Assembly: GCA_003342815.1 (NCBI GenBank)
Contig: PTEX01000094.1
Coordinates: 1,871,745 to 1,935,744, forward strand
Reading direction: 5' to 3'
Origin: Eudromia elegans
Taxonomy: Eukaryota > Chordata > Aves > Tinamiformes > Tinamidae
Length of the DNA stretch: 64,000 nt
Part shown: piece by piece, positions 1,898 through 57,400 of the stretch
Position numbering within the stretch: position 1 is the stretch's first letter
Layout of the letters: each line of letters opens with the position of its first letter
The notes under the pieces: model-generated
The model's input: the letters and a program-made list of their open reading frames with translations, nothing else
Database searches by the model: none
What the model was told of the DNA's origin: nothing
Program-made: the position numbers and the translations under genes

Positions 1898-1929
<32 letters not shown>
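1898..1929. repeat. (TA)n/(CA)n microsatellite
   Basis: About twelve TA units run straight into a short CA run. It is a simple repeat and is likely to vary in length between individuals. Confidence 0.9.
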
Positions 1930-2786: not shown

Positions 2787-2802
2787 GGAGTAGTTTGCAA
2801 CT

Positions 2803-5057: not shown

Positions 5058-5215
5058 GATCATAGAACTGAAAGAATGGTGGTTGGAAGGGTCCTCTGGA
5101 GGTGGCTGGTGTCTGTTCAAAGCAGGACTATAACTTGCATCTGATGGGCTCAGCTGTACATTTGTCCCTCCAAGTCTTGAAAAGGCCCAAAGAAAGAGAA
5201 TTTGCAGCTGCTCTT
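5058..5215 (-). mobile_element. CR1 LINE 3'-end fragment, antisense
   Basis: The stretch reads as the reverse complement of a CR1 3' end. It has the decayed terminal repeat (ATCATAGAACTGAAAGAATG), then GGTTGGAAGGGTCCTCTGGAGG, then CAAAGCAGGACT, then a CATCTGATGGGC-like segment. These are the characteristic words of the avian CR1 3' untranslated region in order. The copy is short, 5' truncated and diverged. The boundary at the high-coordinate side is approximate because similarity fades. Confidence 0.8.
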
Positions 5216-7685
5216 TGGGAAGAGAAGCCTGTTCCTGGGCCCCACAGCACTCCTAGTGAAGATATTCTTTATTGCACCCAACCAGGCTGCATTTTGTGGC
5301 TGTTGCTCCTTCTCAGTTTCTCTTTCTGCCTCTGTGGAGAAAGTGTTTGGCACTTCTTTCTTGGTTGTTCCCTTCCTGGTAGATGCAGAGGGTTCTGGGG
5401 TGGCTGTTCATCTTGGCTTTGTGGGTGAAGTGACCTTCAGCTCTGCCTGTGGGTGCTCTCCTCTTGGCCCGTGTTGAGTGTGGCTGTGCTGTGACCCGAG
5501 TCTTTCTCTCTGTATGTTCTCTTGCTGCTTTTCCCCCTCTCATCCTCCCTCTTCTTCCCTCTTTCCTCCAGTGCATTATTATATTTTGGCAGTTTGCTGA
5601 GCGTGTGCTCTAGGTTGTCATCCTGGGTGCTGATGAGTAGATTTGGACCCCGTTGTAGGTCCTGCGGTCTTCCATTTACCACTAGGAATGTGAACATTAA
5701 TCCTATTCCTACAGCTCTGCGAGCCAGCAACCCAACTAGCTTTCAGCTCACCTTCCCTTTTATTAGTTGAGTTCCTACTTGACCTCTTTGTAGGTGTTCT
5801 CAATAGTTCTGTCAACAGTGTGAATAAAAAAGCAGTAATGTTTTAGGTAGCTGGTAGACAAAATTCTTATTCTTATCAAAATTGTAATTCTTATCAAAAT
5901 TTTTTTTTCTTTTTTAAGAAAAAAGCCTTTTCATTATTTAGGGAATCTATTTTATTGACAGTTAAGCTCAAATCTGTCATTTCCAAGTTAAGCTATGTAG
6001 TTGGTATTCCTTCCTACTGTAGTCCACTAGCTAAATGCAAATGTTACTTCGTTCTAAGTAGGTAAATATGACTGAAATGCATTAAGTAGACTGCTAATAT
6101 GTCAGAAATCTTTTTTTAATTTCTTTTTATAGCTGAAGTTATTTAGGAGGTGGTGGCTTGACTCTAAAGTAAATGTTTAAGTGAGAGAGACTGAAAGTAA
6201 TAATTTTAAGTATGTTTGTCAGATGTTATGTAAGATTGATTTGAAAATATGGAGAAGTGTTTTGAAAGTAAACTGTGTTTGCCAGCATGCTATCTGTCTT
6301 TCCAAATGCTCTCAGTAAACTGAAAACTCTTTTCCAAGAAAAGACTTGTTAAATCTGCGTTTTTTTAATTACAGCTAATAGTTCTGTGAATGGTTGAAAG
6401 TTATTGGAGTGTGTTTATTTTTTGCTTTCTTTTTCTTTTTAGTTTTGTGTGTGTTTTGTGTGTGAATTGGTTGGTGCTCAAAGATGTCATGATTTCATGC
6501 TGTTTTCGTGTGGACTGTTTCCATTGGGGAAGGAGGCTATACTTGTGTACTTAAAAGAAATGGCCTCTTGCGTATTGTTGCAAAGCAAATAGTTAACATA
6601 TTTTTGAATTTTTGCATATGGACAATGATGCTTTGTGATACTGAATGCCATGTACTTAACTGGTGTTCGTGGCTTGTCTGCCTTCTGGGTTAAGCCTGTA
6701 TTCTTTAAGTGTATCATTTATGTCTTTATTAAGTTTTAGGGTTGTGTTTTGCCCTGCGTCCGTGCTCTGTACTCTTAAGAGATGATCAGGGGGCCTGTTG
6801 CGTGTTTAGTAGTGTGAACCTTCTTTCTAATTTCCAGACTGAAAACAAGATATTGATGGTCACCCAAAGATAATGCTCAAAGAGCTTATTTTCTACGTAT
6901 CTATTTTTCTGGACCAGAAATGTTGGTTACCTTCAAAGGAGAAGAGACAGACCATGGGTACCAACTGAGAAGTGAACAGCTCTTCAGGATGGAACTGATG
7001 TCGCTTGGAGAGGTAGCTGTGTTAAGTTTAAAGTGACTTCTTTTGGTGGTTCTCTCTCCAGGAATCTGCCCGAGGTTAACCAATTGCCTTTCATTGTAAC
7101 TCTTTACTGTGGAACAAGGCACCTTCCATTCACTGTAAATGGACCATTTGTTTTTAAACCTAGTGGGCTATATAATTAAAATATCTTGATAAACCCAAAT
7201 ATGGGATTGAATGTTTATGTGAAATACAGTCTTACAAGTTATGATGACTCATGGGTCTTCCAGCTTTCACCTTTCTATTATGACTGGTATCGTGTGAGGT
7301 AGGTGTCCTATTAGATAAGTTTGAGGCAGGCCAGTAGGATGAAGAGAGAAGCAAAAATCATGGTGTGTGATGGTTTATATAATAGAGTGCTACAAACTGG
7401 GGCTGTCCAAACCAGCAAATGTACTCACACAAGTGAAGGTTTGTGCCCTGTGCAGTACAGAAGAAGAAAAATAAAATGCTAATGTTTTCTTCCTTTTCAT
7501 TTGCTTGACTGCATGTTAACCTGCCAATTGACAATTTTGAGGGTGAATCATTTTAAGTTCTTCATGTGACTGATGGATATTTTAGTTCATGCTGAAAGCA
7601 AAATGTTCTTGAATCAGCTGCTTGCTGCCCCAATATAACTCTTGCAGATGCACTGTGCAAAGTCAATAGTGAACAGACACAATTG
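5216..7685. other. Intergenic sequence with a C/T-rich patch
   Basis: No gene is recognised. From about 5230 to 5770 the plus strand is pyrimidine-biased, which opens several overlapping frames on the minus strand (for example 5437-5730). They show no family motif and are treated as composition effects. The rest is A/T-rich with scattered homopolymers. Confidence 0.55.
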
Positions 7686-7905
7686 GCTACAAGGGCAATT
7701 CCTGGTGGATGTGAAGAGAAAGTTCTTCACAGTGGAGATGGTCAGATTCTGGATGAGGTTGTCCTGAAAAGTTGTGAAATCTCCGCTCTTGAGCAACTTG
7801 ATTTTATTAGAAATTTACCTGTCTTTTTGAGCAGGGAGGTAGGATGTATTGTGGGTGACCTCCACAGGTCCCTTCTACTCTTAGCTACTCTTGGTTTCTG
7901 TGTAT
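7686..7905 (+). mobile_element. Decayed CR1 LINE 3' end, sense
   Basis: CR1 3'-end words occur in the usual order: an AAAGTTCTTCAC segment, GGTCAGATTCTGGATGAGGTTG (CR1 usually reads close to this), TTGAGCAACTTGATTTT, and then a variant of the terminal GACCTCCACAGGTCCCTTCTA motif before a degraded tail. Substitutions are many and no coding frame survives, so this copy is older than the one near 23 kb. The 5' limit is uncertain and could extend to about 7600. Confidence 0.75.
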
Positions 7906-10900
7906 TGTAAGTAGGGAAATTTAATTAGTTTCTCTTAAGCAAAGGTTTAGCATTCTTGTTCTAAGCTGTGATTCTGATCTGCTACTGCTACATTAAAATC
8001 TGTGCTAACCCCTGTCAGAAATGGGGTCTGTAGACTCCTACTTTGTTGAAGCATGTACTGACTTATTGCTGTTAATACACAGGAGCTCTGGCTGTGTTTC
8101 TGCTTTCCTGGATCTGTTCATTTCAAGTCAAGCTGTACGAAAGCAAAGCCAACTTGTAAGGTACTCTTGTAATGATGTTTGTGTGGGTTTTTTTATTATT
8201 TATTTTATTTCTTATCATCTACAGTTCTCAACAGAAAGTCTTTAGCAGGAAAGGGTATTGGAAAAGCAGAGAGGCAAGAAGTCAAAATACAAACATGACT
8301 TTCCTGTTCTGTAGGAAAACTTTCACAGTGTGAACTCTGCTGCAGATTTGGAACTTTGCTGTATATACGTTTTCTGTGTACAGCCTCTGTGCCTCTAAAG
8401 TGCTTATTTAATGAAACATTAAAGGTACTTTCCTCCCCTCATATGCCCTCTCTCATTTTCCCTGTCTGGTTCTAGCTTTCTGTAGGTTCAGTATCCTCCT
8501 ATTATAATGGAGATTAGGTGAATTAAAGGTGAACGCACATTTAAACTGTTGTGGGCTATGGAGAATGAAGTGAAAGTTCTGTATATTTGTTACTCTTTTG
8601 TATATTTTTGGGTTGACTGTAAGAAGTGAATATAATAGGTGTATGAATATAATGGGTGAAGTCGCTTCTTAGATGCTTCTTGTGTGTCCATGGTTCAGCT
8701 TCTTACAGTGCAGGAATTCACTGTGCTACAATTATGGGTTGATTTACTGTTTCCTGTTGATCCTTTGTTTGAAACAAGGTGAATGAAGGAGGGAGTATTT
8801 AAGACGTGTTTGTTTTGTTCATCTGTTTCTAGTCACAGGAGACTAAAATAGGTTTATTCTAAGCTTGAGGAAGCTGAAGTGCAGGGTGCTTGGGTGGAGA
8901 CCCTTTTAAACTGGGAGCTGAAACTTCTTTTTGCTCATCCAGCTATTCCTGTTTTCTGTAGCTCATCTTCAGCCCTCCATTTGTCAGATGAGAATACTAT
9001 TTTACAAAAAATTCTTAGTTACGTATTTTTTTTTTCTGAAGCAATTTATATATTGTTTCTGCCTTCACTTAACCACCCCTAAATTCTGTCTCCAGTATAT
9101 TAATAACATGCTATTATTATACTTTCTCATATGCTCTTAAGATCAGGCTCTTGTTTTGTTTCTTTTTCTTTACAATTAGTAAAGAAAATTTTGGCAGAAA
9201 GTGGGCAGAAATTTTTCAATTGAGCCTTGAATTCTAAACCACTTTTTCCACCTCTTGTACAAAAAAAGTCATTGTGCAAGTGTGTGTATAAGTGATCATA
9301 AGAAATAGAATGTGTATGTTCCTGAGAATGCACAGGAGATGGGTTTTTAAAACTATGGGTGTACTTTTACCATACCTTCACTGAAGTTAATCAAGCAGTG
9401 CCCATTTCTAGTGCTGTAGAGCCCTTCTTAACTAGTTATGTGATCAGAGCGGGGAGGAAGAAATTAAGAACATGTCATTGATGTATCCTTAGCATACTTT
9501 AAACAAGTTCTACTACAGAGTTTTAATATTCAATTCTGTAATATTAAAGAATTAGAAAATGCTAGCAGTTTTCTGTCACTATTTTTTCTAGTATTTTTTA
9601 TCTATATGCAGGTTAAGATTTTTTTTTTTTCTGATTCCCAGAATTTAATGTTTAGTTCTCAGTTCTGTTCTGGCCAATGAGCATAACGTAATAGTTGGAG
9701 CAATAATGAACGTCCACCTTCCTCTGCCTTAGCAACACTACCGGTCGCTTGACTCTTCTGCTTGCATCAAGCATCTGTTAAACTGCTTGGATTGACAAGA
9801 CCTTGACTGCAGAACAGAGCTCATGAGCATGCACACACATAGACTTCTTCCACAGCCAATTACTTCTCTCATACTGGTGATGAGATGAAGATGTTTGTGT
9901 TTAAAAAGTGTGGAGAAGATAGTGGAGAATCTTTCTTTAGCTCTTCTATTTCTTTCTTCCCCTGTCTTGCTGAACTCTCTTCACTTAAAGTGATGATGCA
10001 AGGACATAGTTCAGTGTGTGGTAAAATCCTGGTTTACAGTTGCAGAATTTGTAGAACCCTTCTGTTTTGGTCTTCATGGCTGTAGTTTGGGAATTGTTAA
10101 AGAACAATATATATCATATTGGTGTCCTGTTTTTATTGCTTAAGCCATTTAATTCTTCCAAAATAGTGACAGCTAAGAAACAGTTCCTAAGCAAGAGATC
10201 CAATATAGTTTATTGGAATGTGGCAAATGAGTATATTTTCTGTATCAATGGGACTTAATGTCTGGCAGATTTACGGTGTTGTGTAAGTTGTCTTGAAAGA
10301 TTTGGTAAAGCTCTTCTACTTGTTTTTTGTCTAGTTGTGGAGTTAGAGGATTTCACACTTCAAATAATGCCGCTATTATTGCTGTTCCTAACAAACTCCA
10401 TTAACAGAGTGTTCTTGTGTGTGTGATGGTGTTAGAATAATCCCTGTTTATTTACTGTGTTGCCAAATGAGCATTACTAAAGTAATAACAGGGCCTTTAT
10501 TGAAAACTGCAATATGCCATGTGCTTATTTTAAAACAAACTTAAACTGTATTTTGAGGAGAATGAATACTTATTAGACATCTTCAGCCAGCTTTGATTAT
10601 TTTCATTCTATTTTTATAGAAGTTGTAACCTTCACAAATTTCACAAAATCTTTATATACCTTTGGTAAGACCTCTTATTTAGGGCTATGATTGCTTTGTA
10701 ATATGCTGTGTAAATATTAGTAGTTGAGATTGAGTTCTAGAAGTCAGGAGAGCCCTCCCTCCTTATTGGCTGTTTGGTGTTGATTCATGTGTGCAAGCAG
10801 AAGGGGTCTGAGGAGAGCTCGTTCCCTTCAGGTGGGTGACATTGTGGTGACCTTCGTCGTTCCTCAAGAAGTAAGTGCTAAGGGAGAGCACTGTAATAAA

Positions 10901-12459
10901 TGGTTCACTGCAACTTAATGCTCAGCAGCTGAATTAGTCAAATACCAGGTGCTCACCTCTGCATGAAATAACCCATTTCATTCCAATTTAAAATGGGAAT
11001 TTTCATTTTTTTGGAACAGCCTGAGGAGATCTTAGTTGCAAATGACCACTGACTTTTTAAGTACCTATTCTCTAAAATAATAAAAGTCAGTATGGTATCC
11101 ATAGTGACTGCATGCAGCTTCCCCATTAGTCTTGGTGGACTCCTGTAACACTTAGTTACTCACTAGTAAGAAGTTTTCAAGTTTCAGGAGGAACCTCTTG
11201 GGGAAACAAGATGTGACTGAGTTTCTGTAACTAAGAAATTTATTTTTAAATTAATTTTTTCCCCTCCAAACTCGGTTGTAATTCTTTTTTTATTTGTTGA
11301 TGTGCAAGTTAGAGATCCTCCCCAAATGAACAACGTTATATTAATGGAGTCTACATCTATTCTGACAATAGAATCCTTTTTTGCTTATTAAACTTTCTTA
11401 TTCTGAAGGAATGAATAATGCTAAATGGGAATATATGGAGGAGGAGATATATAAATCTCTAAACTACAAAATTAAGGGATTTAAGTGTTCTGTGAACACG
11501 ATCCAGAATTGCATGGTTAAAAAACCTGCCAAGAGCAAATTCAAATTCTTTTACTTTCCATTTCCATCACAGTGAAAGGGGGCACTTTTTGTGTCAGCAA
11601 GAGCACCACTTAAGTCCTTTAGACTTTGATGGGACATTTGGATTAATTCTGTGCAGGACATCATGGAATCAGAGCTTTTGAGAACAAGCAACACCAAAAT
11701 GTTTTGATGTACTTAATGAGTGACTGTACTTCTTAACATTAAGTCTGGTAAATATTAATTTGAGTTACATTTATAAAACTTCTCTTAAAGGAAATGATTG
11801 CAGAACCTCACACAGTCTTGTGGGCGTTTCAGCACTAATTTACTGTTGAAGATGTTCTGTAAACTGATTCCTCCCGAGGCTGTTAGTGTTTTTCCTCCTC
11901 ATCCCTCCCCCTTAATATTTTCCTCATAAAGAAAGTTTTTTGTTTGATTGCAATAGACCCTGAACTGATCACATATAATTCTGTCATTGAAATTAATATT
12001 TTCAAACTCCTGTCAAGTTTCTGTTGCTAACATTTTCTTTATTATAACCGTGGCTTGTTTTGCTTCTCCTCTAATTCTGAATATAACTTTAGATATCTAA
12101 AGTTCTTCCAAAAGGATAAGTGGAATGAATATTCAAAGTGGAAGTCCATTTATTTTTGAGAGGTCTGGGAATGAGGGAATACAGAAATAGAACTTTACGG
12201 AACTCTCTTAAAATGCATATATATATTCAAACCTATAGAGGTCTGAAAAATGTCGTAAAGAGGTCTGAAAATGTGTATTAAAAGCTGGGTATTTGTGTGC
12301 AGAGATGCTGAATTTAGATACTTGGTTGACTTGAGAATCTGAAACTGCGTTTTGTTTGTGAATGTGTAGGACTTTCTTCAGGATGAGCTGAACAGTAACT
12401 GGTTGGGGTGTTATGGAGGATGTCTTAAACCTCTTCTCTTTTTCATTCCCCTCTGCTCC
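7906..12459. other. Intergenic or host-RNA intron sequence
   Basis: No protein gene is seen; open frames are short and unremarkable. If mir-30d lies in a spliced host transcript, this stretch is the intron ending at the 3' splice site at 12460-12461, or part of it. Confidence 0.5.
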
Positions 12460-12461
12460 AG
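12431..12461 (+). other. Candidate 3' splice site before mir-30d
   Basis: A long pyrimidine tract (CTTCTCTTTTTCATTCCCCT and following) ends in CTCCAG followed by GTCGCTG. This is a near-ideal acceptor and lies about 50 bp before the mir-30d hairpin. By inference it starts a non-coding exon of the miR-30 host RNA at 12462. No matching donor can be fixed downstream; weak GT candidates lie near 12620-12640. Confidence 0.45.
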
Positions 12462-12510
12462 GTCGCTGACTGCCTTGTTCTGTCGCACGGAGGCCGCAGT
12501 GTGTAGTAGT

Positions 12511-12582
12511 CTGTTGCTGTAAACATCCCCGACTGGAAGCTGTAAGAGCAGTTCTAGCTTTCAGTCAGATGTTTGCTGCACC
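12511..12582 (+). ncRNA. MIR30D: microRNA precursor mir-30d
   Basis: This is a hairpin precursor of the miR-30 family. The 5p product is at 12518-12539 with the family seed GTAAACA and the 30d-specific CCCGACTGGAAG continuation. The 3p product is at 12558-12579 (CTTTCAGTCAGATG...). The arms pair well: GTAAACATC with GATGTTTGC, and CTGGAAGCT with AGCTTTCAG, around a loop of about 14 nt at 12543-12556. As recalled, both mature arms equal the vertebrate sequences exactly and only the loop differs. Drosha and Dicer would process it. miR-30 members repress many mRNAs, including ones in autophagy and differentiation. The partner mir-30b lies 3.1 kb downstream on the same strand, and ZFAT begins 20.9 kb downstream. 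Hairpin ends are set by analogy to known precursors. Confidence 0.97.
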
Positions 12583-15500
12583 TGGCTATTCCTGGGCAGC
12601 ATGGGGAGGAGAAGCTGCCACGTACATTCCTGCTTGGTATAGACACAATTGAATTGACTTAAAATGACTTAACCTGAGTGTTTTCATTAATGCACGTGTG
12701 ATTTCTTGTAGTCTGCTCTGTTATGAGATGGAGATGCACAGATACTGTGTGTGCATCACTGAAGATCAAATTCTCTGCTGCTCTGTGCTATGAGCTGTGG
12801 AATTATGGTTTGCTGCAGCGTGATGGCAAGTTGGCAAGTAGTGTTTAATTTCTTGCACAGTTATCCAGAAACCAGGCTTGCTCTGTGGGCTCTTTGTTAA
12901 CAACAACTGCTGTCTCTGACATTTAGAAAATTATTATAAATGCTGTCTGATGCTTAACAGACGTCTTATCTGATGTGCTTAGATCTCAGTTGTGCTTTAT
13001 GAAATTCTGTGTTCTGGATCTTTTATGAGTGGGTGTCTCTTAATTGTCTGTAAGCTGAATATAGCCCAAGGCCAAGACAAAGATATATTTTATTATATAT
13101 ATATTTATATGTATATACAAATCAGGTTGTTTTTGTAGTAGCAATACAGCCCATACACTTGCAGATGGTATGATCTTTTGTGTTGCATCCACCATGGCAT
13201 TAGAAAGGTTTATTTTTGTGTATGTGCAAATAACAGCTTTTGAAAGTACTTTTTTGGACATAAACGCTTCACTAGCTAAACTTCAAAATGACTTAAGGAA
13301 TCATTTCAGCAAGAAGAGCTGTCTGCAAAATAGATTCAGTGCTTTCCTCTATTCTGGAAATAAGACCTAGGAAGAAAAATCTGGGAATGTTCTTTCCCGG
13401 AGTTTTACCTGCAACTCTGTTTTTAACAGGATGAGGGGAAATGCGCTAAGTGAGTAATTTGCACAATTCTTTAAGCAGAAAATATTCTTGAAATACATTG
13501 TAGCTTTCCATTCTTCCTCCTCTCAGTGTTAATTTTTTTAATTCCCTGACGCTTAACAGGGAAGTTGCATATTCAATTTCTTTATACTATAGTAAGACTG
13601 GTTGACTAAAGTAATTTTGTAAAAGGAAAAAGATGCCCAAAGACATAAATACTTCTTTTTTTAAGAAAAATCTCTTTCTGATTCATCAGAATAAAAGCCA
13701 CTGGCACTTCTGAGCTCTGGGAAATGTAGACTGAAAATTGTTGCCTTTCCAATGCCTGTTGAACAGGCAATGAATGACCTGATGTGAACCAGTCCTGTGA
13801 CAGTTGTTATTCTGTTTCTGTTACTTGGTTGTTCTGTGTAGTGTGAAATACAAATGTGTGTGGTAGGAGGAGGCCCTGAACTTGCATATTGATCCAGTTC
13901 ATTTCTAACACCTCTGCAAAGATTTGTTTTCAAAGCAGCTTGCAAAGTTAATGCATAATCTCAGTGAAAAACACTTTAAAAGAATATGAGCTGTTCAGCT
14001 TCATAATTTTCTGCAGGTATAATAAAAATAGTGTTTTGAAGTAGGATGCATATATCAATATTCTTAAAAAGAACAAATAGTGCTAGTAGTTGCTTCCCAA
14101 ATTTTTTTACTGTAAATATTGTTTCACAGCTCCATCTACTATTTGGGCTTCCAAGAAAGGAAGTATCTTCTGTTAACATTCTTGTTTGACTGATCAAAGT
14201 AAGTACATTATCTCGGAATTAATCTAGCAGTCATTTTGGTCAGTGTCATCTTAGCCTCTCAACATGTCAGGTTACTTTTCTATTTCCTCTAAGCTTAGTT
14301 CAGAGGCAGTTTATCAGGAGTTCTGTTTGTATGTGTACATTATATTGTACTAGTGTGTAATATATGTATTTGAACTTAGTTATCCACTGCTTGAAAACAA
14401 ACTTACGTGTCTTGTAACTACTGGAAATAAATAAAAACCTACCCTGCACTTTTGGTTTATGTTTTATTTTTTCAAAATGTTTTAAGGAGCTCCTTTCTGT
14501 ACACCTAGTGCACTTTGGTGGGAAGGAAGGGTCCCTGGAGGCAGCGCAGGGCCCCTGCCATTGCAGCAAGGTCTGAGCATGGACGAGGCAGATCCCATGC
14601 CAGGAGAACAGCAATAACAAAGTGAGTTATCCTGTATATTAACACAGAATTATGTCACTTGTTTAATCAATGAAAGATATCCTGGTGGGCAGCACTGAAA
14701 CTGGGACACGTAACTGATAATTCTGTGTGACTTCTATGTCCTATACATAGAGGTGTAACATATGGATCTGTTTGGAGGTGGAAGATTAATGTGGGATACA
14801 CAAGCCATAACCCATAGACTGTCCTGCACTGTCCTTGCTGTGGACTCACAGCTGCATTTGGCAGTGCCAGAACTGATGCTCTTTGTATGGAGAGCAGCAG
14901 TTGCCCATCTGGAGGGCTTGAAACAGCCCATGTCTGTAGTTGCCTCTCCCCAGTTAATCTGCAAAACCCTTTTCCTGACAAGACCTTTGAGAAGACTGAG
15001 GGTCACAGTCCTGTGAGACCTCCTCTGGGCTCATTAAGTTCCAGGAGCTACATAAGATGTATTCTTTCTTTGTGAAGTAATAGGAAACGTGGCCTGAAGA
15101 GCTCTAGAGGTGAGGGAATTAAGAAAATAGAGCACAAATGGCACTTCATTCAGATGCAGCAACAAAAGCTGCAAAACTCTAGCACATTAAGACAATTTAT
15201 TAGTGTTAGATACTACAAGTGTGTGTTTTTGAACAGGACATTTTTGAGTTTGAGCATGAAGATTTTTGAGTTTGTGTCACTCTATTGATGTTCCATATAT
15301 ATATATATCTTTTATATGTTTTTGTTCAATCATGAGTTTGATAATTTAGATCTGAGATTTTAGAGACATGTACTTAGAGCATCAGGGGGTCCTGGTAGGA
15401 AGTGCAACACGTTGTGAATCTCTGAGTTATGGAAAGCTCTTCTCTTTTTCATTCTTATACCTCTGCAACCACTGTCTGGATCTGTGTGTCTGTATATATA

Positions 15501-15676
15501 AATGTCTTCTGATAAGTTTTAAATGTTAATACAGCTTCATAATGCCAGTAAGGCTTGGCCCTGCTGCATGTGCCTCATGAGTGGTGCACGTTCTGGCTCA
15601 CCCAGTGTATTGAAGTATATCTGTGAGGATTCATTTTTGGATATCTTGAAAGCCAATGCTGTATTTATGTTGTTAA
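12583..15676. other. Spacer between mir-30d and mir-30b
   Basis: It is probably part of the shared primary microRNA transcript. No protein gene is seen. It holds A/T-rich patches such as an AT run near 13082-13118 and (TA)n at 15295-15308. Open frames on the minus strand near 14300-15000 are not supported by any motif. Confidence 0.6.
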
Positions 15677-15764
15677 GCTAACTTTTAGTTCCTGTAAACA
15701 TCCTACACTCAGCTATAACAAGTGGTAGGGCTGGGGGGTGGATGTTTACTTCAACTGACTTGGA
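15677..15764 (+). ncRNA. MIR30B: microRNA precursor mir-30b
   Basis: This is the second miR-30 family hairpin. The 5p product is at 15693-15714 with seed GTAAACA and the 30b-specific TCCTACACTCAGCT end. The 3p product is at 15731-15752 (CTGGGGGGTGGATG...), one base different from the human 3p as I recall it. GTAAACATCC pairs perfectly with GGATGTTTAC, and CTCAGC pairs with GCTGGGG around a loop of about 16 nt. The lower stem includes AGTT with AACT. It shares its seed with mir-30d but differs in the 3' half, so targets overlap. The order 30d then 30b, followed by ZFAT on the same strand, is as in human. Confidence 0.97.
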
Positions 15765-15985
15765 AAGGCAGCTTCCCTGAATGATCAAGTGACCTATTGG
15801 CAAGACTGGAATGCTATATATATTTTCTTTCTTTCTGTAGTATTCAAAGAAGCTTAATGTAAATACTGTTCTCTCTGTAGAAGTAGTATGTATTTTTATA
15901 ATGTCTTAAAATGTTGAATTATATTGACCATGTAAAACCAACATTGTTTATTGTGAAACCAAAATCTGTGTTTTTCTAATCTGCA

Positions 15986-15991
15986 AATAAA
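15986..15991 (+). terminator. Candidate poly(A) signal of the miR-30 host RNA
   Basis: A canonical AATAAA is followed 12-25 nt later by a U/GU-rich stretch (CCTTTTTGTCTTG), the usual layout of a cleavage and polyadenylation site. It lies 222 bp after the mir-30b hairpin, in A/T-rich sequence with 3'-UTR-like composition. Its use by the primary microRNA transcript is inferred from position only. Another AATAAA followed by T/GT-rich sequence occurs near 18410. Confidence 0.4.
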
Positions 15992-16010
15992 CTGTAATAA
16001 TGTACCTTTT

Positions 16011-32740: not shown

Positions 32741-33137
32741 TAGCAAATGATAAAACTGATATTCAGTGAGGGTTAGTGTGGAAACAAATGGAAAAACAAC
32801 AACACAAAAAAGGACACCACGAAGAAGTGGGTGTTTATGGATAGTAGTTGCATCGTCGGAGTATCTCTATTCGGGCTCTTATTGAGAATAAGCCAAAAGT
32901 AATTTAACGCTTGAATCCAGAGCTTGAATTTGAATCTCACACTTACTGCATGTGGTTCACAAACATGGCTCTCTCCGGGCACGCAAAAACCCTCAGACCT
33001 GAACGAATGCACTAAAGAAACAAGGCTAACCGCCTGAGCTGCGTTTAAAACACCGCTCCGCAGCCACGAAGCCCAAACGCTTTAAACGCTCGGTGTTTCC
33101 CCTCTCGCCTCCACCATTTACCTCACGCGGAGCCGCC

Positions 33138-33147
33138 GCGCAGGCGC
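33138..33147 (+). promoter_or_regulatory. NRF1-like site
   Basis: GCGCAGGCGC is one base from the palindromic NRF1 consensus GCGCATGCGC, a common element of CpG-island promoters. Binding is inferred. Confidence 0.4.
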
Positions 33148-33150
33148 CTC

Positions 33151-33174
33151 CCAACGGTCGCGCTCGGCCGTTGG
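33151..33174. promoter_or_regulatory. Inverted pair of MYB-like sites
   Basis: CCAACGG (33151-33157) and CCGTTGG (33168-33174) form a perfect 7-bp inverted repeat around a 10-bp spacer. Each arm holds the MYB core AACGG. Outer bases (GGCGCC... and ...GCGCC) extend the symmetry. It could bind factors as a pair or simply be a G/C palindrome. Confidence 0.35.
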
Positions 33175-33286
33175 GCGCCCCGCCCTCTCCCCCTACCCGT
33201 CGTTGAGGAAGAAGCCGCCGTGTCGGACGCGGCAGATTCGCCATAATCCCTCGACCGTCTCGCCTTACCCTAATCCATTAAAATTA

Positions 33287-33295
33287 TATATAAAA
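33287..33295 (+). promoter_or_regulatory. TATA-like element inside the CpG island
   Basis: TATATAAAA matches the TATA consensus and sits inside a 41-bp block made only of A and T (33277-33317). If used, transcription would start near 33318-33328 and leave a 5' untranslated region of about 170 nt. CpG-island promoters usually lack a TATA box, so this may only be a low-complexity A/T insertion. Confidence 0.25.
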
Positions 33296-33370
33296 TATAT
33301 ATTTTTTTAAAAAAAAAGGAGGTGTAGGACGCGAGGGCGCAGTGTGTTACGCTCGAGGCGGGGCGCGCTG

Positions 33371-33378
33371 GCGCCAAA
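33371..33378 (-). promoter_or_regulatory. E2F-like site
   Basis: GCGCCAAA, read on the minus strand as TTTGGCGC, is a full match to the E2F consensus TTTSGCGC. It lies 117 bp before the ZFAT start codon. This fits a gene active in proliferating lymphoid and haematopoietic cells, but binding is inferred. Confidence 0.4.
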
Positions 33379-33494
33379 GGGATTTTGCTTTTTTTAATAT
33401 ATACATAACTTTTTAAAAAATTTTATTTTTCAACCTCAACGCTTGGCGCTGTCGCCCAGTTGCGCCACCGCGCGCCCCGCTCGCCGCCGCGGCG

Positions 33495-33513
33495 ATGGAA
33501 CCTGCGGCCGCAG
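33495..33513 (+). CDS. ZFAT: ZFAT coding exon 1
   Basis: A 19-nt coding stretch, MEPAAA plus the first base of Gly7, ending in the donor CAG|GTGAGG. The start codon has G at -3 and G at +4, is the first ATG after an in-frame stop at 33414-33416, and splices in phase 1 to exon 2. The result MEPAAAGVNSIF is the same length as the human start METRAAENTAIF before the first finger, which supports this exon despite its small size. The 5' untranslated part of the exon is not delimited. Confidence 0.85.
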
Positions 33514-36500
33514 GTGAGGCTGGAAACAGCGGAGGGGGGAAGGGGGAGACCGGCAGCGCGCGCAGGGATCCGCTCGCGGAGGCCAAGCGGCGGCGGCGGC
33601 GGAAGTAGTTCCGGCTGCGCGTGTCGTGACGCGGCTTCCGAGCGACAAGTAGTTCCCGGCGGGGCGGGATCTGCAAGGGGGGCTCAGCCCTCCAGTGTGG
33701 TCCGTGACACTTGCCGAGAGGTGGGAATGGCTCCATAGGACTTAATTACCCGTTAATTACCCTCCGAGGGTCCCCTGATAGCGAGACTGTCGGGTCGTCC
33801 GCGCCGTCCCGAGAATCTAAATAAATAAAAAATATAGTTTGTGTAAACACATTAGCCTTAATAAAAATAACGTATGGTTATTTTTGGCGATTGAATGCAG
33901 AAAAGTCCCGGGCGGCCGATGTGTCTGGTGTTGGGACAGCCGAGCTCTGTGTCAGGCCGCGGAAGTGTCACTTTTAGGTGCCTTAAAAATAATAAAAATA
34001 AAACCACGCAGGGTTTCAGAGCCGATCCGGGCGCTGGTGATCGATGGCAGCTCTTGTGTTCCTAGTTAGTTGTTACGAGGGTCCAAATGTTGTCAGGGCC
34101 TCTTGTCGTGTAGTTTAGAGCATTCAGTCTCGGAGACTCCTGCAGCGCAGCGTGTAGCCACAGGAGGGCGCGCTTGCAGCACGTAAAAGACTTAAATCTC
34201 TTCTAAAAACATACCCTGTTACTACAGAATATAGACGTATTGAACGTGTAGTTTCCTGAAGTTGAAAAAAAGCCCTGTTTCCATCGATATTTATATACTG
34301 ATCTATTTTGGATGTAGTCATACGTAGTGCAATAATGGGAGTTCATAAAACAAAGTTGTAGTAATAGCAATTAACAATCTTGTGCTAAAAAGTGGCTCTT
34401 CTAACAGAGGTAAATTGATTATTATGAAATTCCATGGATTAGCTAATCTGCATATTTTGTCATGTGTTTCATTTGAAATCATTTATGGAGAATACTTTGT
34501 GATATACACACACACACATATATATTTTATATATATACACACACATATATAAAAATATACACACACGCACATATATATGTATATTTATATGTATATTTTT
34601 TCCAGGTAATTGAAAACCTTTAGGCAGTGCTTCATTTTGCAGAACTTGATGTGACTACTGTAAGCAGCAGTTTTACAAGTAGCCTGTGTAAAAGCTTTAC
34701 CAAATCTTGGCCCCACTTTACCTTGTCCACCGTCTACAGTGTAAGTAACGGTGGGATGTCACAGGATAAAAGATTTTTAAAGTGAATTTTTAAGGCTAAA
34801 CAGAAGGAGACAGTTTGACGTGTTCCGTGTCCCATTGGGCCGCAACAGGTGTCCAAGGAAAAGCTTGAGGGCAGGGCACGGATGCAGGGATGCAGCCTGG
34901 AAGCTGCTGGGCCTGGGCTGAGCCCATGCTCGGCTCTTTTTTTAAATTACTTTTTGATTCCTAAAAGCATCTATATTGACTGGTCACTGTGATTTGCTTT
35001 CATTTGTCACAATTTGCAATATTTTTTTGTATTTCTTGTTTGGCAGAACGTTGACTTTAGGAAGATATTTTCCTCTGTAAAACTTCCCTGCTTCCTTTTC
35101 AAGCTATTTAGCTCTGCTTTTATTATTATTATTTTCCCTGGGCGTTTCTAAAATCTTCTTCATAGATTAGCATCAAATATGAGGCTTTTAGTCTTCATGC
35201 TGCTCTCAAGAATTCAGCTCCTTGTAATGTTTTTAGCCCTCTGCCCCCCACTTTTAATCTTTATTCAGTTCAATTGTTGAAATTAAACACAAAATATTTG
35301 ACTTTTTATTACTCTTGTAAAAGATTTCTGAGTACCTGTTTAATCCTGGGTACAGCAGAGTGCTTCTCTAGTAGTATCACCTTGAATGAGGGCCCTATAT
35401 TTTCCTCTGGAAAAGGTCAGGAACTCTTTCTCCTCACATTTCCTCATGGGTTGTTCGTGATGGTTGTTCAGACCCCTTAATGGAGTCTGAATGTTTGATC
35501 TCAGCTTCCTGTCCTGACCTGAAATTTGGCCAGTCTACCTGAGGGTAAATGAAGCCCCTGTGATTGTTACTGCTTCTCTCCTTGTAACCTCTTCTGCTTT
35601 GCCAGCCTCTTGCAGTCACTCTGACCGTAGTGCTCAGCCAGCTGATACTGCAGGCCTGACTTTTCTAAACTTCTAAACTGACTTTTCTGATGTGCTTTTC
35701 TAAACCATGCCAGTTTTCAGTCCTTAGAGCTTTTGTTACTGGAGGCAACCTGATAAGCAGGTTTCTAAACTTCCTTTCACAACAGCATCACTTTACAAGC
35801 AGCACAGCCTACATCCTTTCTTGTACACTTTGTGTTTTGATGTTCTGGTGCTCTGCTGGTGTTACGCCTTCAACCTACTTTCTGAAAAATATGTCAAAAT
35901 CTGTGTTCACAGCTAGGCATGAATGGTTCTGCCCTAGAATTGGGTTCTTGCATTAGTGCACAGCATGTAGGTGCTTCATTTAAAGCAAAGAAACAGAAAG
36001 GAAAACCAGCAACATATTCCAGCTCTCCTTTTCTGTTTTCCATTCGAGTTCTGCTTTTAGTGATCATCTGAAAGGAGCCGTCAGCCTTTTACCATTGCAA
36101 AGGGAGGCACCTTCATCTTTGTGCCTTTATGCTCTTGTCCTCTACCCTTCAATCTTAATGGTTTTTCTGTGATCTTAAATTTTGGCTTAGATGAAGCCAG
36201 TTTATCCTCTCAGGTTTTGTTTGGTTTGGTTTTATTTCCTCAGCTTGCAATGTTCCTTTAGGCATGTGGCAAAGTACCAATTTGTTCTGCTGACCACAGC
36301 ACTATTGTGAGTTCTTGCCTCAACTGGTTAACAGTAGCTTAAACAGAGCTTGTGGATATTTTGATCTTAAATCGTCATTTTTAGTCATAAAACATAAGAA
36401 TCCATAGTGGCATTTTATCTTGTGAACTTTTGGTTTTGTTAGAAAGTATTGGAGAGTTATGATGAGATCTGATTTCCATAAACCCATATTGATTTTAGTA

Positions 36501-39500: not shown

Positions 39501-42500
39501 CACTCTAGTTTTACTTCTTTTTTGGTAGTTTTGCTTCAACTTGAGTGCTTCCCATGGTGTTTTGTTTTCTTATTTACTTTAGGTGATTAGCTTGTGGCCT
39601 TCAGCACTTGTCTGTATTATCAGATACTTTAAACAATCAATTTTTGGGGCATTCTTCCTGCCCTTCCACCTTTCATCACGTCCTCACTGGGAATGCTGAG
39701 AAATAAGCTGCTGTGTGGGTACGGATTAAAACCACTGAAGGAGGAGATGGGAGGCCCCAAACCGTGAGCCTGAGTTTTTAGAAGAAGAAAATAGCAGGTT
39801 AGAAAGCAGTGATGGCAGCAGATAATAACACCTGAAAATACAAATGTTACCCAAATAGTGGAATTTGTATATATAATGTTAAACATGTTTATAGATGTTC
39901 ATTTTATATATATATATATATGTATATTTATGCACATATACTTATGCATATTAGATATATGGATATATGGTTTTTACTTTTGTGTTACGAATCTTAAATA
40001 TGCATATACATTTAGACCAAACAGTTCTCCCTCTTTTGATAATGAGCCTTCTCACTTTTGTATTTTAAATGAAAGAATAAATGCTGAACTATTGTAGCAG
40101 AACTGATTCAAAGGGATGTTTCCATTTTATACTCCCTGCAGTGGAAATAAAAATATGTGTGTGCTCAAGGCAGACACATGTCTGAGAAGGAACCCTGTTG
40201 ATCTTACAAGGATGCATTGAGCATATTATATATTTTACATAACTGTTTATATGCATAATATACAGTATCTTTGGGAGGTACTATAAAGACAAACAATATA
40301 TGAGGGGTTTTTTTAAGACATAGTGTCTTTTTTTAGTTTTGAGGTGGTTTTATTGGAGCTTCCTCTTATATTTATTATGTTTATTAGCTATTTATTAGCT
40401 TCCTCTTCCCCCTAAAAATCACCCCAAATCCTATAGAACATAATATCATTTCTGACTAAGAGGTGCTTTGGTGTGTGCCCCAAGCAATACTGGTTGTTTC
40501 ATGCTGATGTTAGTCAGCTTCGGGGGCCTGAGGGAAAGGAAGGTTTGAAGCCCATCCCTGGGCCAGAGGTTTCTGTAGGTATTGAGGACTCAGCATAATG
40601 TTGAAATTGGCTCCTGGTTGTTAGTTTTCATGAACACAGGAGGGAGCAAGGGCTATGAAAAAATTGAAAAATTAAAACAAATCGCACAAGTTTTAAAACA
40701 GAAATTGAGTCCTGGGAATTAGTTGTTTTCCAGAAGTTTGGAAGTTTTCTTGTTGTTTGTTCATTTGTTTTTTATCTTGATTTTTTTTCAGTTATTAATT
40801 TATAATGTGCAGTAACCCTTCTCTTTTGTCCTTTACTGTCTGGCGGTTTTGCTTTTGCTTTGGCAGCACATGTCTACTCTCAGTGTATAAAGGAGACAGA
40901 TTTTAACATGAAGAGAAAATCTGTTAAATTTTGATTTAAAACAGCGGAGAAGGAAAACTACAATTGGTTTTAGTGTAATTCTTCATTTGATAATGGTTGA
41001 GAATTCATTGGCTTTTTTGTTTTTAGGAGAGTTGTTTTGGGAATCAACAAAAAATTGTTTATAGGACCTTTAAATCAAAGAATATATGAAATATTTGGTG
41101 TTTCTGATTATGTCAAGTATATAAAATATAATTATTTATACCTCTAAGGCCTATAGGAAATGTTTTGAGAGTAACTCCTACCTCCCCCCCATAAATTTTC
41201 TCCTATTCCTTATAGAATTATGCCTGTTTAGATCAAGTAGATAAAAAGGGTAAATGTGGTTAGAAACAGCAGTGAGGTCCATAAATGTAAACTGGATATG
41301 GAACTCAGCTTTTCTACCCTATAGAGTCATTAGGAAGGATGAAATGTGTATTATACCAACACAACACGCATTCAATCTGTGCAGTGGCTTCACATGTTAT
41401 GTAATTTTCTGTTTTTCTCTATCTGAGGCTGGGAGAGGATTTTTTTTTTTTTTTGGTCTATCTTTATTCCTTTTAAGTCTTATTATTTCTAAGAAGATTT
41501 GAGTAAGGAGGAATTTCCTGAACTGCAAGAGTCCAAACAGAAGTTCTAATAATTTTTTAAACTATTTAATTTTATAATTTACTATGAATGCATTAATTTA
41601 ATAATGTAGCAGTCTCTAAGCAATTACTATCTGATTTGTGTTAACAGAAATAAAACTCAGTATCTGGTAGTATTTTAAATTAGCCACTAACATTTACAAG
41701 CATTAACTCTACCTTTTTTTTCTTTTTTTTTTTTTCTTTTTAGGGGTCAATTCCATCTTCATGTGTAAACTTTGTAACTTATTTTCACCAAATCAATCAG
41801 AATTACTCTCCCACGTCTCTGAGAAGCATACGGAAGAAGGGACTGATGTGGAGGACATCATTATTCCACTCCAACCACTAACAGCACCCACAAATATAAG
41901 CAAAAATGGAGAAGGTACTTGGATAAATTTGAAATAATGTAATTTTCATTAGTTATTTGCTTTTTACTGGAGTCTGTCATATGATGATTCCACAGTGTGC
42001 CAGGAATTACTTACAAAGCCGGTTTTATAATGGTCACTGTGTACTGCCCACTTGAATTTCATTCCGTGCAAAGTGATGATGAACTTGCATAAACTCAACA
42101 TGTGTCAGGGGATGGTTACATTGGTTGATTGATTTTTAAATGTCAAATATGGCAAAATCTGTTTAATAAGGCCTTAATTGGAAGCTCTGTGCTAAAAGTG
42201 GAAACAATGTTAGTTCTAAATAAGTGAATTTTCTGTGACAAGCAGATAGTGTATCCAGAGCTAAAGGTGCAGAGGGTATGTAGGTCTTGAAGCTTAGGAC
42301 AGTGACATGCTTTGAGTTGTCCAACTCTTGACTTGTTATGTTTCAGATTAATAATAATTCTAATAGAATTATAAATAATAATAGATAATTCTGTTTTAGA
42401 AAAGAGATGGCATAATCCATTTTTTAATTTTTTTCTTTTATATTGGTTCTAGTAAATGAGGCAGTCTGGTAGTGAAAGGTTGAATTAGTTTTTCTGAACA

Positions 42501-45414: not shown

Positions 45415-48400
45415 GATATAGTATAAGGAAATAATTAAATATAATTTTTCTGTATAATAACATGAGGGCTTCCTAAATGCTACACACGGGCTGAACATTT
45501 TTCAGACAACTGATTATTAAATGGACTGATTTTGAAAAGCTTGTGTGAGTAATTTCTATGAAGGAGCAGCACAAAAAGTACTCATATATACTTTATTTCA
45601 TTATTCTTTTTGAAGTGTCTTGGTTTTTTAATGTCTTTGAGGACATAATTATATAGTATAGTACAGATTCTCTTCTGTGAATATTCCCATTGTGCACCTA
45701 GTAATATTAATGTAAAGATTGGTTTCAGGGAACCTGTGGTGAGCATAAAAATCCCCAGGGACAACTGAGATGTTTGGGGGAGAGGGATGTTAAAAAAAAT
45801 GCCAAGATTATACTTTAAAAATCTTTTTAAAAGACCAACTTAAAATGAATATCTGACTAAGTACACTCAAAATAGTGTGTATATGTTTTTCCTGATATGC
45901 TGCTTTTGTCATTAACAGTTAAGCAGACATTTTTCCAGCGAGGGGTAGGCTTTTCCAGCAGGGACTTGGTTGGGTGCAGCTGAGCAGCACTGGGCTGCTC
46001 CCTTCCTGCGTGCTGTTCACCTTGGGCTGCATGTAACGGCCACGGCTGTTATTAAACACTCAGTTCTGCAAGTGGCAGCCCAGAATACCTTGAAATATAC
46101 TCAGCCCTGCAAAGAAGGGAAGAACAAAATAGAGAGAGAAGAAAGAAATAAAGTGACTGCCATAAACCTCAGGAATTTTGGTGAAAGTTACCTCCTCCCC
46201 AGGGAATGTTCCTACTTAGCACTTGCCAAAAAGCCTTACTAAATGTCTGAGAACTGTTGTGGACTCTTCTGCTGGCTCGTTTATAAGTAGGTTTACATTT
46301 ACAGTCTTAAGTTTACAGGATTGTTTGCCTCCCTGTTCTGTGTGTCAGAGGAACTCTACAATCAAGCTGCTAAGGGTGCATTTCTCACATTTCACTTGCT
46401 TATGTGATTCCATTTCTGTTTTCAAGTGCTATTTTGTCTTAAGTTTACATTAAAATGTTTGTGAAGAGATGCATCTTTTTCACCTGACTGTCTCTCACTT
46501 CTTTTTGGATACTGTGTTGGAAAACTTGATGATGGTTGTAAAAAGATATTTTACACAGTGAATAGGGTGTTTAAAGTCACACTTGGAGTCTTGGAATTTA
46601 TATCTGATAGTAGCTTCAGCAATATCCACATCTTCATTCTTCATAATATGTTTGACACTGTGATCACTTGAGATTTTTTTGTAGGCTGACATGAAAATAT
46701 ATTTTTTGTTTATTAATTATGATGTTTATTTCAGTTGATGCAGTAAGTGCTGGTTGCTGCAAGTGATGTGTATCAAAATAAAAGCAGCAAAAAGAACTTT
46801 TGAGGGCATTGAAATCTTCTGTCTCTTTTGGCTAATTATTTTGTAGCAAAACTATTTTGACTTGAATGAAGTAGTATGGAAATTCACTGCTGGTGAAGGG
46901 TTCTAGTAAAGTGAAAAGTTGCTTTTATTTCTATCTCTTAGGCAGCTTTCAGAGTTTTTCTTCCTACCTTGCATTTAAATAGACAGGTGATCAGTGCTGT
47001 AACAGGGCAGAATGGATTCTCTTTCCTGTGTTATCAATCAGATGATGATCTCAAAGCTGTGATTTGTGCAAGAGGGTTTTTGTTTGCTTGGAATTCTTAA
47101 GGAAAGCGTTCAAAAGATTTTGAAGGGGGGCTGCCATCACCTCCTGTTCTTTTGCATCCTTTGCCCTTAAGATTTTTTAGGACATTTATTTTTTTTTTTT
47201 TCCCTCAGGCAAGCACATATATTTGAAAGTCATTGGGAATTATTTTTAATGTTTGTTCCTCTTACATAGTTGGGAACTTTACATTTGGCAACTTTATATT
47301 GCCAATCTCAATCTACAGGCTGTTGGCTTAATGAATACTTGATAAAGAGACAGTTCTCATAGTTCTTAATATACTCTGATCTTAGTGAAAGTTTCTGGAA
47401 TAAGAACAATAAAAAACAAGTTGCTCGTGAGGAGGGACAGTTTAGGTGTTAATACTGCCTGCCTGTTTCAGCTTGATTAAGGATCTTCACAAAGGATTTA
47501 TTCTTATGGACAAACACATTCACCATAAATTTAGCTTTTGGAAAGTTCGGATTTTAGTAACACATATGTGATTGCATTGCAGCTAGGAGAAATGCCAACA
47601 AATGTCTTTACATGAAACTAGGTTTGTGCAAAGCTCAACTTTTCTAAGCTTTAGGTGTAGAGGATTTCAAACTTCATTTAATATCCATACTTTTGAAAGA
47701 GCTGTATGGCTATTAGCCAATTACACAATAATCCTGCGGATTTTCATTAAAGCTCATTTTCAACTTTCCTTCCCAGAGCTTCTTGCACAGAAGAGAAAAA
47801 GGGGCAGACCGAAGGGCTCTACGAAGAAACTCTGTGCAGATGAAGAGGTGGCAGAGAACAGCAATTCTGCTCCGAGCGAGGAAGCCCAGCCTGGGTCAGA
47901 GGAAGGACCAGAACCTGGCGACATCTCCACAGGCAATTTGGAATGCAAGAAGTGCAGTCGGAAGTTCTCTAACACGCGTCAGCTGAGGAAGCACATCTGC
48001 ATCCTTGTTTTAAACGAAGGAGAGGAAGAAGGAGAGGGAGGTAAGAAAAGAACCATCAAAAACATATGAAGTATATTGCAGATTTTTTTTCCGTTCAGCT
48101 TGTTACCTGCTGGATGACAACTTGTTGCACCTAGTGTTAATTTTAAATGGATTTTTCTACTTCTTTTAACATTCATTTTGATGAGCCCAGACAACTGGGC
48201 TTTTTGTCAAACTTACTGGGTCAGTCACGGCTAGAGTCATCTGAGACAAATGGAACAGATGGAAAGTGGAACTGAGAAGAAAATAAGGTGTTTTAACCTT
48301 TTTTTTTCCCAGAAAGATTAAAATGTTTATTACACAATAGGTGTGTTAAACTCACTGAAACAGTTCTTTTGCATAAGAAACTATGGTGTTTCTCAGAAAG

Positions 48401-54400: not shown

Positions 54401-57400
54401 AGAGAATGATTTTTTCTCGTCCCTTGAGTCACTTTGTGCCTTAGCCCCTCTGATCTTGCCACTATACATTTGTTCTTTTGTGTTTGTAGCTTTAGAAATT
54501 TCACATAGCTCCTACACACTTAATTTTTTTTTCTGTTTTAGAGTATAATATTGAGAATCTTGGCTTGTAATCTAAGTGTTTGATACATGTTCTGAACAAA
54601 CGAAGCTACTAATTTGTGCTTGTGCCCATCATATTTTTAGTGGGCTGTCAGCTCTCTTTAAACTGTCATTGCATTAAGCTAAGGTCGTGTGAGACACTTC
54701 CTTCACTCTCAGCTAAATATTAATATAAAATGTTGCAGCAATTAGAATGCTTTTACATGTAGCAGCATATCTGGCCACTGCTTTGCTGTTTGCATTTCGT
54801 AAAGCCCTCACTCCTGACATACAGCAGCTTTGCTGCTGTATTTTATATTTATATATTGTTTCCCTATCTCCGTAGACCAGCTACAGCACTTCATGAATAT
54901 ACATTAAATGACTTACTGTGGAGACTGTCAGCTGCTTCAGATTCGGAAAAAATTTGAAATTCATTTGATTCATCTATAATTTTCTTCTTTAAATCAAGTT
55001 TTCCTTTCTTATTACCTCTGGAACATTTGCATAATGTCTTTATTTGCTAAGAGAGTTTTTCTAGCCCACGTTTTCTAACCCTTAATCTAATGTAAAGAAA
55101 TGCTTTAGCATGTGCTTCAGCCGTCTGATTTTTTTCTTTAATGTCATTCTGCTAAATCATTTTCTACAAAGTCATTTTTAGAATATCAATAACAAATTCT
55201 TCATTTACTTAAAGGAAAAAGACTGTAGATTCAAGGAACAACTTAGCTGATTACTGATTATTCATTTCTTATTTCAGGTGAGTGACTTGCTTTCTAGGTA
55301 CCAGGCCCTGAGACTGTGATAGCCCAAGACGCCTCCTTAACAAGACAAAGATATTCCAAGCAGGAAAAGATAGGGGGTGATTTAGAAGCTCAAGGTTGCA
55401 AAAGGCAGTGTTATATGTCAGGAGTCAGACTGAAACACACGATTTATTTTTTTTTTTCTTGAATCAACATTTAAAAGAAAAACATTTTGGGCTATTGATC
55501 CACAAAAACTGTGGGAGAAAAATCACTAGTGCAGAGCGACTGTTGGAGAACTTTCGATTTAATGAGATGAATAATGAACCAATTACTTGGAGGAATAGTC
55601 CTAAGGTCACTAGAATGGTTGCTTACAGAAAGGAGAAAAATAATTCATGAATGAACATGAATGAATGATGGTGAAATCATGAGAAATTGTACAAAGTTTT
55701 CATGGGTTTTAAGAATAATTTAGGAACATAGGTGTTAATGAGAAGACAATATTTTACATTTAAAATTTCTGTATTTCTTTTTTTTTTTTTTTTGTATTTG
55801 TTTGAAAGTATCATATTGGCTCTATGAAGGAGTACAAAAAACCCAGTTGATTATATGCATTCCTGCAGCACTACTCTTTTTTCTTTTTTTTTTTTTTTTT
55901 GATAACAAGCAGTTCTTTGCATAGTAGTATTAATCCTAATTAGTGTTAATCTTAATTCTTTCTATACTAATAGCAGTTGTGTTTCCTGCATTTATTTTTT
56001 ATATAGTTATATTCTTTTTGGTGTTTGCTCTTTAGGTAACGATTCTGACGTTGACCTTGACAGGAAGGAAGACGAGCGAGAAAAACCACCAAAGAAGCCC
56101 AGAGTCCAGAAAGCAGAGAAAACTCTTCCAACTAAGGAGGCTGAACAGGTTTCAGGAGCTAAAAATCCTATTATAAGTGTGGTTTTGACAGCCCATGAAG
56201 CTATTCCAGGTAATCAAAATCTTCCATTATATAAGGAAATCAGGTTTTACTCATGCTCACTATTTAAGGTGTCATTATTTTAAAGCCTGGCAACTGCTCA
56301 GGACATTTGTTATCTGAAAAATAAAATATTTGGTTTAATTTCATCGTCTTTGTATAAAATTTCTGCATCTGGCAGCTATGCATCATTTTAGAACTACCAC
56401 TACATTTCTTCATTGATATGGCAAAGGCTTGGAAAGGACTGTGTGGTGTGTTATCTGCATTAACATTAGTAATATTTAGTCTGTGAATGTTTTAAAGTAG
56501 AAACTGAAAATATTGCTGACAAAGGAACAGGAAAGTTCTTTTTCTAATATCATTGTTTATTTCAGTTCTTGATTAATGTTTATCATTAGCATAACTGTAA
56601 ATCTGATTACAAAAATGCAAAGAGCTTAATATAGTTGTATGGTAGTACAGTAGTGCCCCTATTCTCCATCAAGCTACTAGGATAATAGTTTGACAGAGAA
56701 TGCTTGGCCTTACAAGAGGATGTATAAAATATATTTTTGGAGATCACAAGAGGTTTCTATGCTTTAATTAAAAGATTTTTCATTTAAAAATTTCTCTTGT
56801 ATCTTTTATGAAAGGCTTTTGAGGCAATTTTACACCATTGCTTTTAAATATAGTCCTGTATTTGTCTGTTTATATAAAATAGCCCTGTATCTGGCTGAAA
56901 AAAATCCCTTTTTAATGATATCTTGCATCTTTTTCAGCTTTACAGCCTTTACTGTTCTCCTCTTTTTTATTGCAAGCATTTCTGAATAGTTGTTTTTCTT
57001 GCAAATTGCAGACTGAGTAGACTGTATGTTTAGTCTTATTGTTATGGGTTGGAAGCTCTCTGAGTTTACTGTGTTTTCTTCAGTACCTTTTGATATTGAG
57101 ATCTGTGGTACCCTTGGGCTTTGTTTCTTAAAATGTGTCCTTCCTTGTGAAGATAGTAGAGGAAACTGGATGAACTGAGCTGATCCTGTGTGCTCAAGAG
57201 GAAGTAAAAGACAGCATCAAATCGATGGCTTGAGAAACATAATATAGGAGTTTGGACTTTAAATTCTCAGCTCCTGTAGTATTGTGAATATGGGGGAATG
57301 TGGGAGAGGGAAGAAGTGAAAAAGAAAATTTGTACTGTTATCTGTGAGCTGCTTTGGAGCTACTGATACCTGATATCAAAGTTGCTTTGTCTGGCTAGCT

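Follow-up and report, generated by a model that had tools for sequence, protein, structure and literature searches.

The miR-30 family represses its target genes. In mammals its precursors are known as a set of three pairs, with an origin in the early vertebrate genome duplications.

Previous works describe the mir-30d/mir-30b cluster beside ZFAT in man and rat (PMC2702821, PMC2990713, PMC3540659). The promoter of the human cluster was mapped in 2009 (PMC2668758). That work treats miR-30d~miR-30b as one cluster with one promoter, and its Table 1 gives a Pol II ChIP-chip region together with a predicted CpG-type start that precedes mir-30d by 27,763 b. On the same strand, the lncRNA AC083843.1 adjoins MIR30B/MIR30D, and its expression correlates with FOS, FOSB, and JUN in human midbrain (PMC4830632). 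It has been proposed as a partial pri-miR-30d~30b (PMC9512191, also PMC4830632); another gene number stands for the same name in PMC7014947. In birds, miR-30d rises between two embryonic stages in the neural crest cells of chicken, duck, and quail (PMC3327661). On the synteny of the cluster in chicken or other birds we found nothing specific in the literature, although it may still be in print.

We analysed a stretch of 64,000 nucleotides from Eudromia elegans, referred to here as the window. Table 1 presents its features and those of the flanking and related loci.

Table 1. Features of the mir-30d/mir-30b locus, of the ZFAT gene, and of the other mir-30 pairs. Negative positions lie upstream of the window; S is the strand asymmetry, with its interval in brackets.
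Feature	Position	Strand	Basis or value
mir-30d precursor hairpin	12510..12585	+	Rfam RF00131, 69.5 bits, E 8.2e-14; fold z -5.2
mir-30d arms	5p 12518-12539; 3p 12558-12579	+	mature-arm comparison
mir-30b precursor hairpin	15685..15758	+	Rfam RF00131, 62.3 bits, E 9.4e-12; fold z -3.5
mir-30b arms	5p 15693-15714; 3p 15731-15752	+	mature-arm comparison
Candidate host-RNA exon start	12462..12509	+	predicted; acceptor-like AG 12460-12461, 56 b ahead of the mir-30d 5p arm
Overlapping AATAAA pair (14426, 14430), then T/GT-rich stretch	14426..14435	+	predicted; between the hairpins, where a transcript with mir-30d alone may end
First AATAAA past mir-30b	15986..15991	+	possible 3' end
Upstream CpG island	-8049..-6550 (L007:1951-3450)		20 kb ahead of mir-30d; left part is a CA-rich repeat
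ZFAT promoter CpG island	32801..34050	.	CpG scan, one of two islands in 184 kb
ZFAT first coding exon (MEPAAA-)	33495..33513	+	read by eye; inside the CpG island
ZFAT coding exon 2	41744..41913, right edge approximate	+	tblastn 41752-41913; acceptor rank 2/4298
ZFAT coding exon 3, AT-hook-like KRGRPKG	47777..48015, right edge approximate	+	tblastn 47776-48015; acceptor rank 22/4298
ZFAT coding exon 4	56036..56211, right edge approximate	+	tblastn 56035-56211; acceptor rank 72/4298
ZFAT coding exon 5	62912..63063, right edge approximate	+	tblastn 62911-63063; acceptor rank 6/4298
ZFAT coding exon 6 (C2H2 zinc-finger array), cut by the window end	63345..64000	+	tblastn 63343-63999; acceptor rank 450/4298
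S upstream of the island	-119999..-8050 (112 kb)		-0.036 (-0.052 to -0.019)
S from the island to 16 kb	-6549..16000		0.163 (0.128 to 0.200)
S after mir-30b	16001-24000		0.141
S ahead of the ZFAT island	24001-32800		0.069 (0.010 to 0.127)
S in ZFAT	34051-62900		0.133 (0.105 to 0.159)
30d/30b pair (window locus)	C716		mature arms
30e/30c-1 pair	C554		mature arms; spacing about 2.4 kb
30a/30c-2 pair	C701		mature arms; spacing about 25 kb

Both hairpins score above the RF00131 gathering score (50.2 bits), and no other Rfam family reaches its own in the 64 kb. The folding energy is -37.2 kcal/mol for the first hairpin and -30.8 kcal/mol for the second. In each case, 0 of 200 shuffles of the + strand were as stable. 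Both 5p arms carry the seed GUAAACA within a stable hairpin. For the comparison of mature arms we used 11 references of the miR-30 family, which we take to be those of miRBase. The first hairpin has no mismatch with miR-30d in either arm. Against miR-30a it has 1 mismatch in 5p and 2 in 3p, and against miR-30e 2 and 3, respectively. The second hairpin has no mismatch with miR-30b in 5p and one in 3p; against the 5p arm of miR-30c it has 5. Three of the four arms are identical to miR-30d or miR-30b, and the exception (30b 3p) differs in one base. By these mature arms, the first hairpin is assigned to mir-30d and the second to mir-30b.

The two 5p arms are 3,175 b apart. A CNNC motif, which has a role in Drosha processing, is present 17-18 b past the 3p end in both hairpins. 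No UG was found within 20 b ahead of the mir-30b 5p arm. Chance hairpins or pseudo-hairpins are ruled out by the model score, the shuffles, and the intact arms. Hairpins on the antisense strand were likewise rejected: the minus-strand matches to RF00131 stay below the cut-off (37.9 and 35.2 bits) and fold less well (z -1.6 and -2.0). A lax Rfam search added only the minus-strand shadows of both hairpins and three weak mir-297 matches far under the cut-off.

The downstream neighbour is ZFAT. The tblastn query was a sequence that we take to be the N-terminal part of human ZFAT. The exon 6 array is 90% identical to it over 219 aa. The motif in exon 3 is presumably AT-hook-like, and the donor CAG/GTGAGG at 33514, after the first coding exon, scores best of the ZFAT CpG island. 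For the 225-residue frame at the right end of the window, the two best PDB matches carry the name 'Zinc finger protein ZFAT' (2rsj, 1.2e-51; 2rsi, 4.7e-49). Other C2H2 proteins also match this frame, and the third PDB match has 3.3e-47. In a genome search with the same 225 aa array, the window gives the one match over the full length (6.3e-153) among the matches listed of 164. The next array match listed has 2.0e-15, with 40% identity over residues 12-119; the rest of the 164 are generic zinc fingers. Judged by the full-length match of the zinc-finger array, the ZFAT locus is single in this genome.

The original prediction had proposed two miR-30 hairpins about 3.1 kb apart on the ZFAT strand, with unchanged mature 5p arms. 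It had also proposed the order 30d, 30b, ZFAT, at 18-21 kb before the ZFAT start codon. The Rfam hairpins and the tblastn exons agree with it in every one of these points: all are on the + strand, both 5p arms are identical to their references, and the hairpin ends are 20.9 kb (mir-30d) and 17.7 kb (mir-30b) from the ATG at 33495. One outcome named as refuting it was a closer match at a different miR-30 locus. We next consider the other mir-30 loci of the genome.

The genome-wide mir-30 search covered an assembly of 944 Mb in 723 contigs. It scored the best candidates only, so its counts are a lower bound. At least six mir-30 hairpins, in at least three pairs, were above the cut-off. Two pairs besides that of the window were found, and they are 30e/30c-1 and 30a/30c-2. 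They resemble the window pair in having an a/d/e-type hairpin first and a b/c-type second on one strand, an order seen in 3/3 of the pairs found. However, they differ from it in their mature arms and in their spacings. The possibility that the window pair is another miR-30 locus is ruled out, since both of those loci are found elsewhere in the genome, and the original assignment is not refuted. Ahead of mir-30c-2, at about 50 b, we also observed by eye an acceptor-like pyrimidine tract with CAG (L003 reverse complement; unscored), as is present ahead of mir-30d.

Compared with human MIR30D/MIR30B (8q24.22), the window has the same two precursors and the same ZFAT neighbour. However, ZFAT is several-fold farther away in human (about 87 kb), and the human sequences depart from those here in the hairpin loops and at one position of the 30b 3p arm. 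The window locus is an ordinary bird orthologue of the known cluster. The rat hairpins fall within a 3.8 kb region (PMC2990713), against 3.2 kb here. The linkage itself, common to man and rat (PMC2702821, PMC2990713, PMC3540659), could have been kept by enhancers of ZFAT within the miRNA unit, as the original prediction had also considered. Nevertheless, neighbours over such a distance may stay linked without any such bond, and we consider this reading improbable; it is compatible with the explanation that we prefer below.

The analysis also took in the 120 kb that precede the window, of which 12.6 kb are N. With the window, the 400-b CpG scan covered 184 kb. It found two islands, that of ZFAT and one upstream of mir-30d, and none between the two hairpins. 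In the first 60 kb upstream of the window, no Rfam family exceeded its gathering score. The upstream island has at -7462 one copy of TGACGTCA, presumably a full CRE, and at -7475 one copy of GTTGCCATGG, which we take to be an RFX-like half site. Each is the sole + strand copy in the 184 kb. The best donor-like site of the island is CAG/GTACGA, at -7329. A degenerate CA/TGCA-rich repeat of strongly skewed composition lies directly upstream of the island (L007 about 1001-2350).

The upstream island was located without use of the human promoter row. The CpG-type promoter of the human cluster is 27.8 kb before mir-30d, against 20 kb for the island here, a comparison of positions between unaligned sequences. 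The island is probably the promoter of the bird pri-miR-30d/30b, situated much as the human one. As a bird promoter it is a prediction of this analysis; we found no literature that states it in a search that left most subscription journals outside. A transcript from it would resemble the human lncRNA AC083843.1 (ENSG00000259820), a same-strand noncoding transcript beside MIR30B/MIR30D, and this likeness is one of position and strand.

A more specific reading is that the bird pri-miR-30d/30b is a lncRNA unit of ~32 kb. Its CpG-island promoter, shared with mammals, would have the full CRE and the RFX-like site. The unit would be active in the germ line and read on towards the ZFAT promoter, and cAMP/CREB would set the miR-30d/b output independently of ZFAT. 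The correlation of AC083843.1 with FOS, FOSB, and JUN would suit a CRE-driven promoter, without showing it. No finding that links CREB to miR-30d/30b was met among the papers that a literature search listed, PMC8600252 included. We consider this reading possible but doubtful. The human promoter map (PMC2668758) lowers its standing and that of a joint transcription with ZFAT, and raises that of a separate pri-miRNA gene.

Other features of the window were also recorded. A CR1-like retrotransposon remnant of roughly 0.85 kb (about 22950-23815, by eye) lies between mir-30b and ZFAT; a query that we take to be the 3' end of an avian CR1 finds 23644-23808 at 73% (165 b), as fits a bird genome. Several open frames overlap in a GC-richer patch at 20001-24900, part of which is the CR1 copy. 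Pfam, at E 0.01, gave no match to any of eight frames of 132-157 aa (at 19, 21, 23, and 51 kb). The 29-b stretch that begins at the mir-30d 5p arm had no match in either viral_contigs or genome_contigs.

We used strand asymmetry to follow transcription along the locus. On the coding strand, introns of transcribed genes hold more T than A and more G than C, and S adds both asymmetries. The segment values were computed with simple repeats and the CR1 copy masked; a mask on coding exons and on the ZFAT island was applied in a single other run. S is slightly negative upstream of the island and positive from the island onwards, much like that of the ZFAT introns until it weakens at about 25 kb (Table 1). 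In the analysis by 4-kb bins, TRF repeats were also masked, -14000 to -7650 was dropped by hand, and 3 of the 26 upstream bins were omitted, with too few bases. The highest of the remaining 23 upstream bins has 0.066, and the seven bins from -6000 to 22000 have 0.10 to 0.239. At the 2-kb scale the ranges touch, with an upstream bin of 0.098 (-51999..-50000) and a bin of 0.060 inside the unit (-1999..0).

The best single change-point of the asymmetry is -7499, within the upstream island. A three-segment fit makes the CA-rich repeat its own segment, with edges at -11499 and -7499. When -14000 to -7650 is excluded by hand, the edge moves to -14999, beside the gap (permutation p 0.0005; these tests assume independent blocks, which is only roughly true here). 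Because the CA-rich repeat blurs the change-point, the onset of the asymmetry is placed only between about -15 and -7.5 kb. Past mir-30b there is no sharp stop. A second, weaker edge is at 25001, where the fall is modest (permutation p 0.02), and the 2-kb bin 28001-30000 has S = -0.036. The values in 1-16000 are higher than in 24001-32750 (p 0.0008, 250-b blocks) and slightly higher than in the ZFAT introns (difference 0.049, p 0.048). The depletion of AATAAA in 1-12510 was rejected as a sign of transcription: the raw counts are 5 against 22, but on the + strand 5 are seen against 6.8 expected by composition.

The CpG island of its own, the onset of asymmetry near it, and the human promoter 27.8 kb upstream make a separate pri-miRNA gene the likeliest explanation. 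The locus is the avian MIR30D/MIR30B orthologue beside ZFAT. Very probably it is a long pri-miRNA gene distinct from ZFAT and under a conserved upstream promoter of its own. Most likely, a long noncoding primary transcript of the + strand would begin at the upstream CpG island, 20 kb from mir-30d (near -7.5 kb; L007 about 2330-3450), as the counterpart of the human promoter. It would most likely end by about 25 kb in the window, ahead of the ZFAT island (32.8-34.05 kb). The AATAAA at 15986..15991 need not be its end because the strand asymmetry continues beyond. From this pri-miRNA, Drosha and Dicer would cut the miR-30d and miR-30b hairpins, and repression of targets would most likely follow. 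The acceptor-like site ahead of mir-30d, a candidate exon start, ranks 7 of the 4298 AG sites of the + strand and exceeds 3 of the 5 ZFAT acceptors, by a simple, hand-made score that is weakly specific (most of its top 30 sites are without a known exon).

The AATAAA motifs at 14426 and 14430 could instead separate the two hairpins, with mir-30d ending there and mir-30b transcribed from its own promoter. In human cholangiocytes the two pri-miRNAs respond differently, and a 5'-RACE end was obtained for pri-miR-30d; the 5'-RACE for pri-miR-30b failed in the same work (PMC2778997). However, the scan places no CpG island between the hairpins, and the asymmetry does not drop between 12 and 16 kb. 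Likewise, the human data give one cluster with one promoter (PMC2668758), and the constant order of the three pairs found is what bicistronic units predict. Separate transcripts are unlikely on this evidence.

The separate pri-miRNA gene must also be weighed against co-transcription with ZFAT. The miRNAs could come from the ZFAT promoter, as suggested for miR-30b/d expression in PMC3412823, or be intronic in a longer ZFAT transcript from the upstream island. The hairpins and ZFAT are close neighbours on one strand, and S in 24001-32800 (0.069) stays above the upstream background. Nevertheless, from mir-30b it is another 17-18 kb downstream to the ZFAT island and start codon. The main ZFAT promoter, being downstream of both hairpins, cannot make them in sense. 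The lower asymmetry in 24001-32750 also speaks against co-transcription. Amplification went along with increased miR-30b/d in medulloblastoma lines, but not with increased ZFAT1 (PMC2702821, which does not show the data), and the human miRNA promoter was mapped elsewhere (PMC2668758). Co-transcription is very unlikely. The regulation shared with ZFAT that the original prediction had considered is not supported: the ZFAT island is 17 kb downstream of mir-30b, and a separate one is 20 kb upstream of mir-30d, near the onset of the asymmetry. The pri-miRNA gene and ZFAT would be tandem neighbours with separate promoters.

A conserved microRNA locus is confirmed in an avian genome. Its geometry argues against the suggestion that miR-30b/d are expressed off the ZFAT promoter (PMC3412823), since that promoter lies past both hairpins here, and a second CpG island precedes them, as in the human Pol II map (PMC2668758). 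Should birds and mammals share the promoter at the upstream island, the transcription unit, and not the hairpins alone, would have been kept since their common ancestor.
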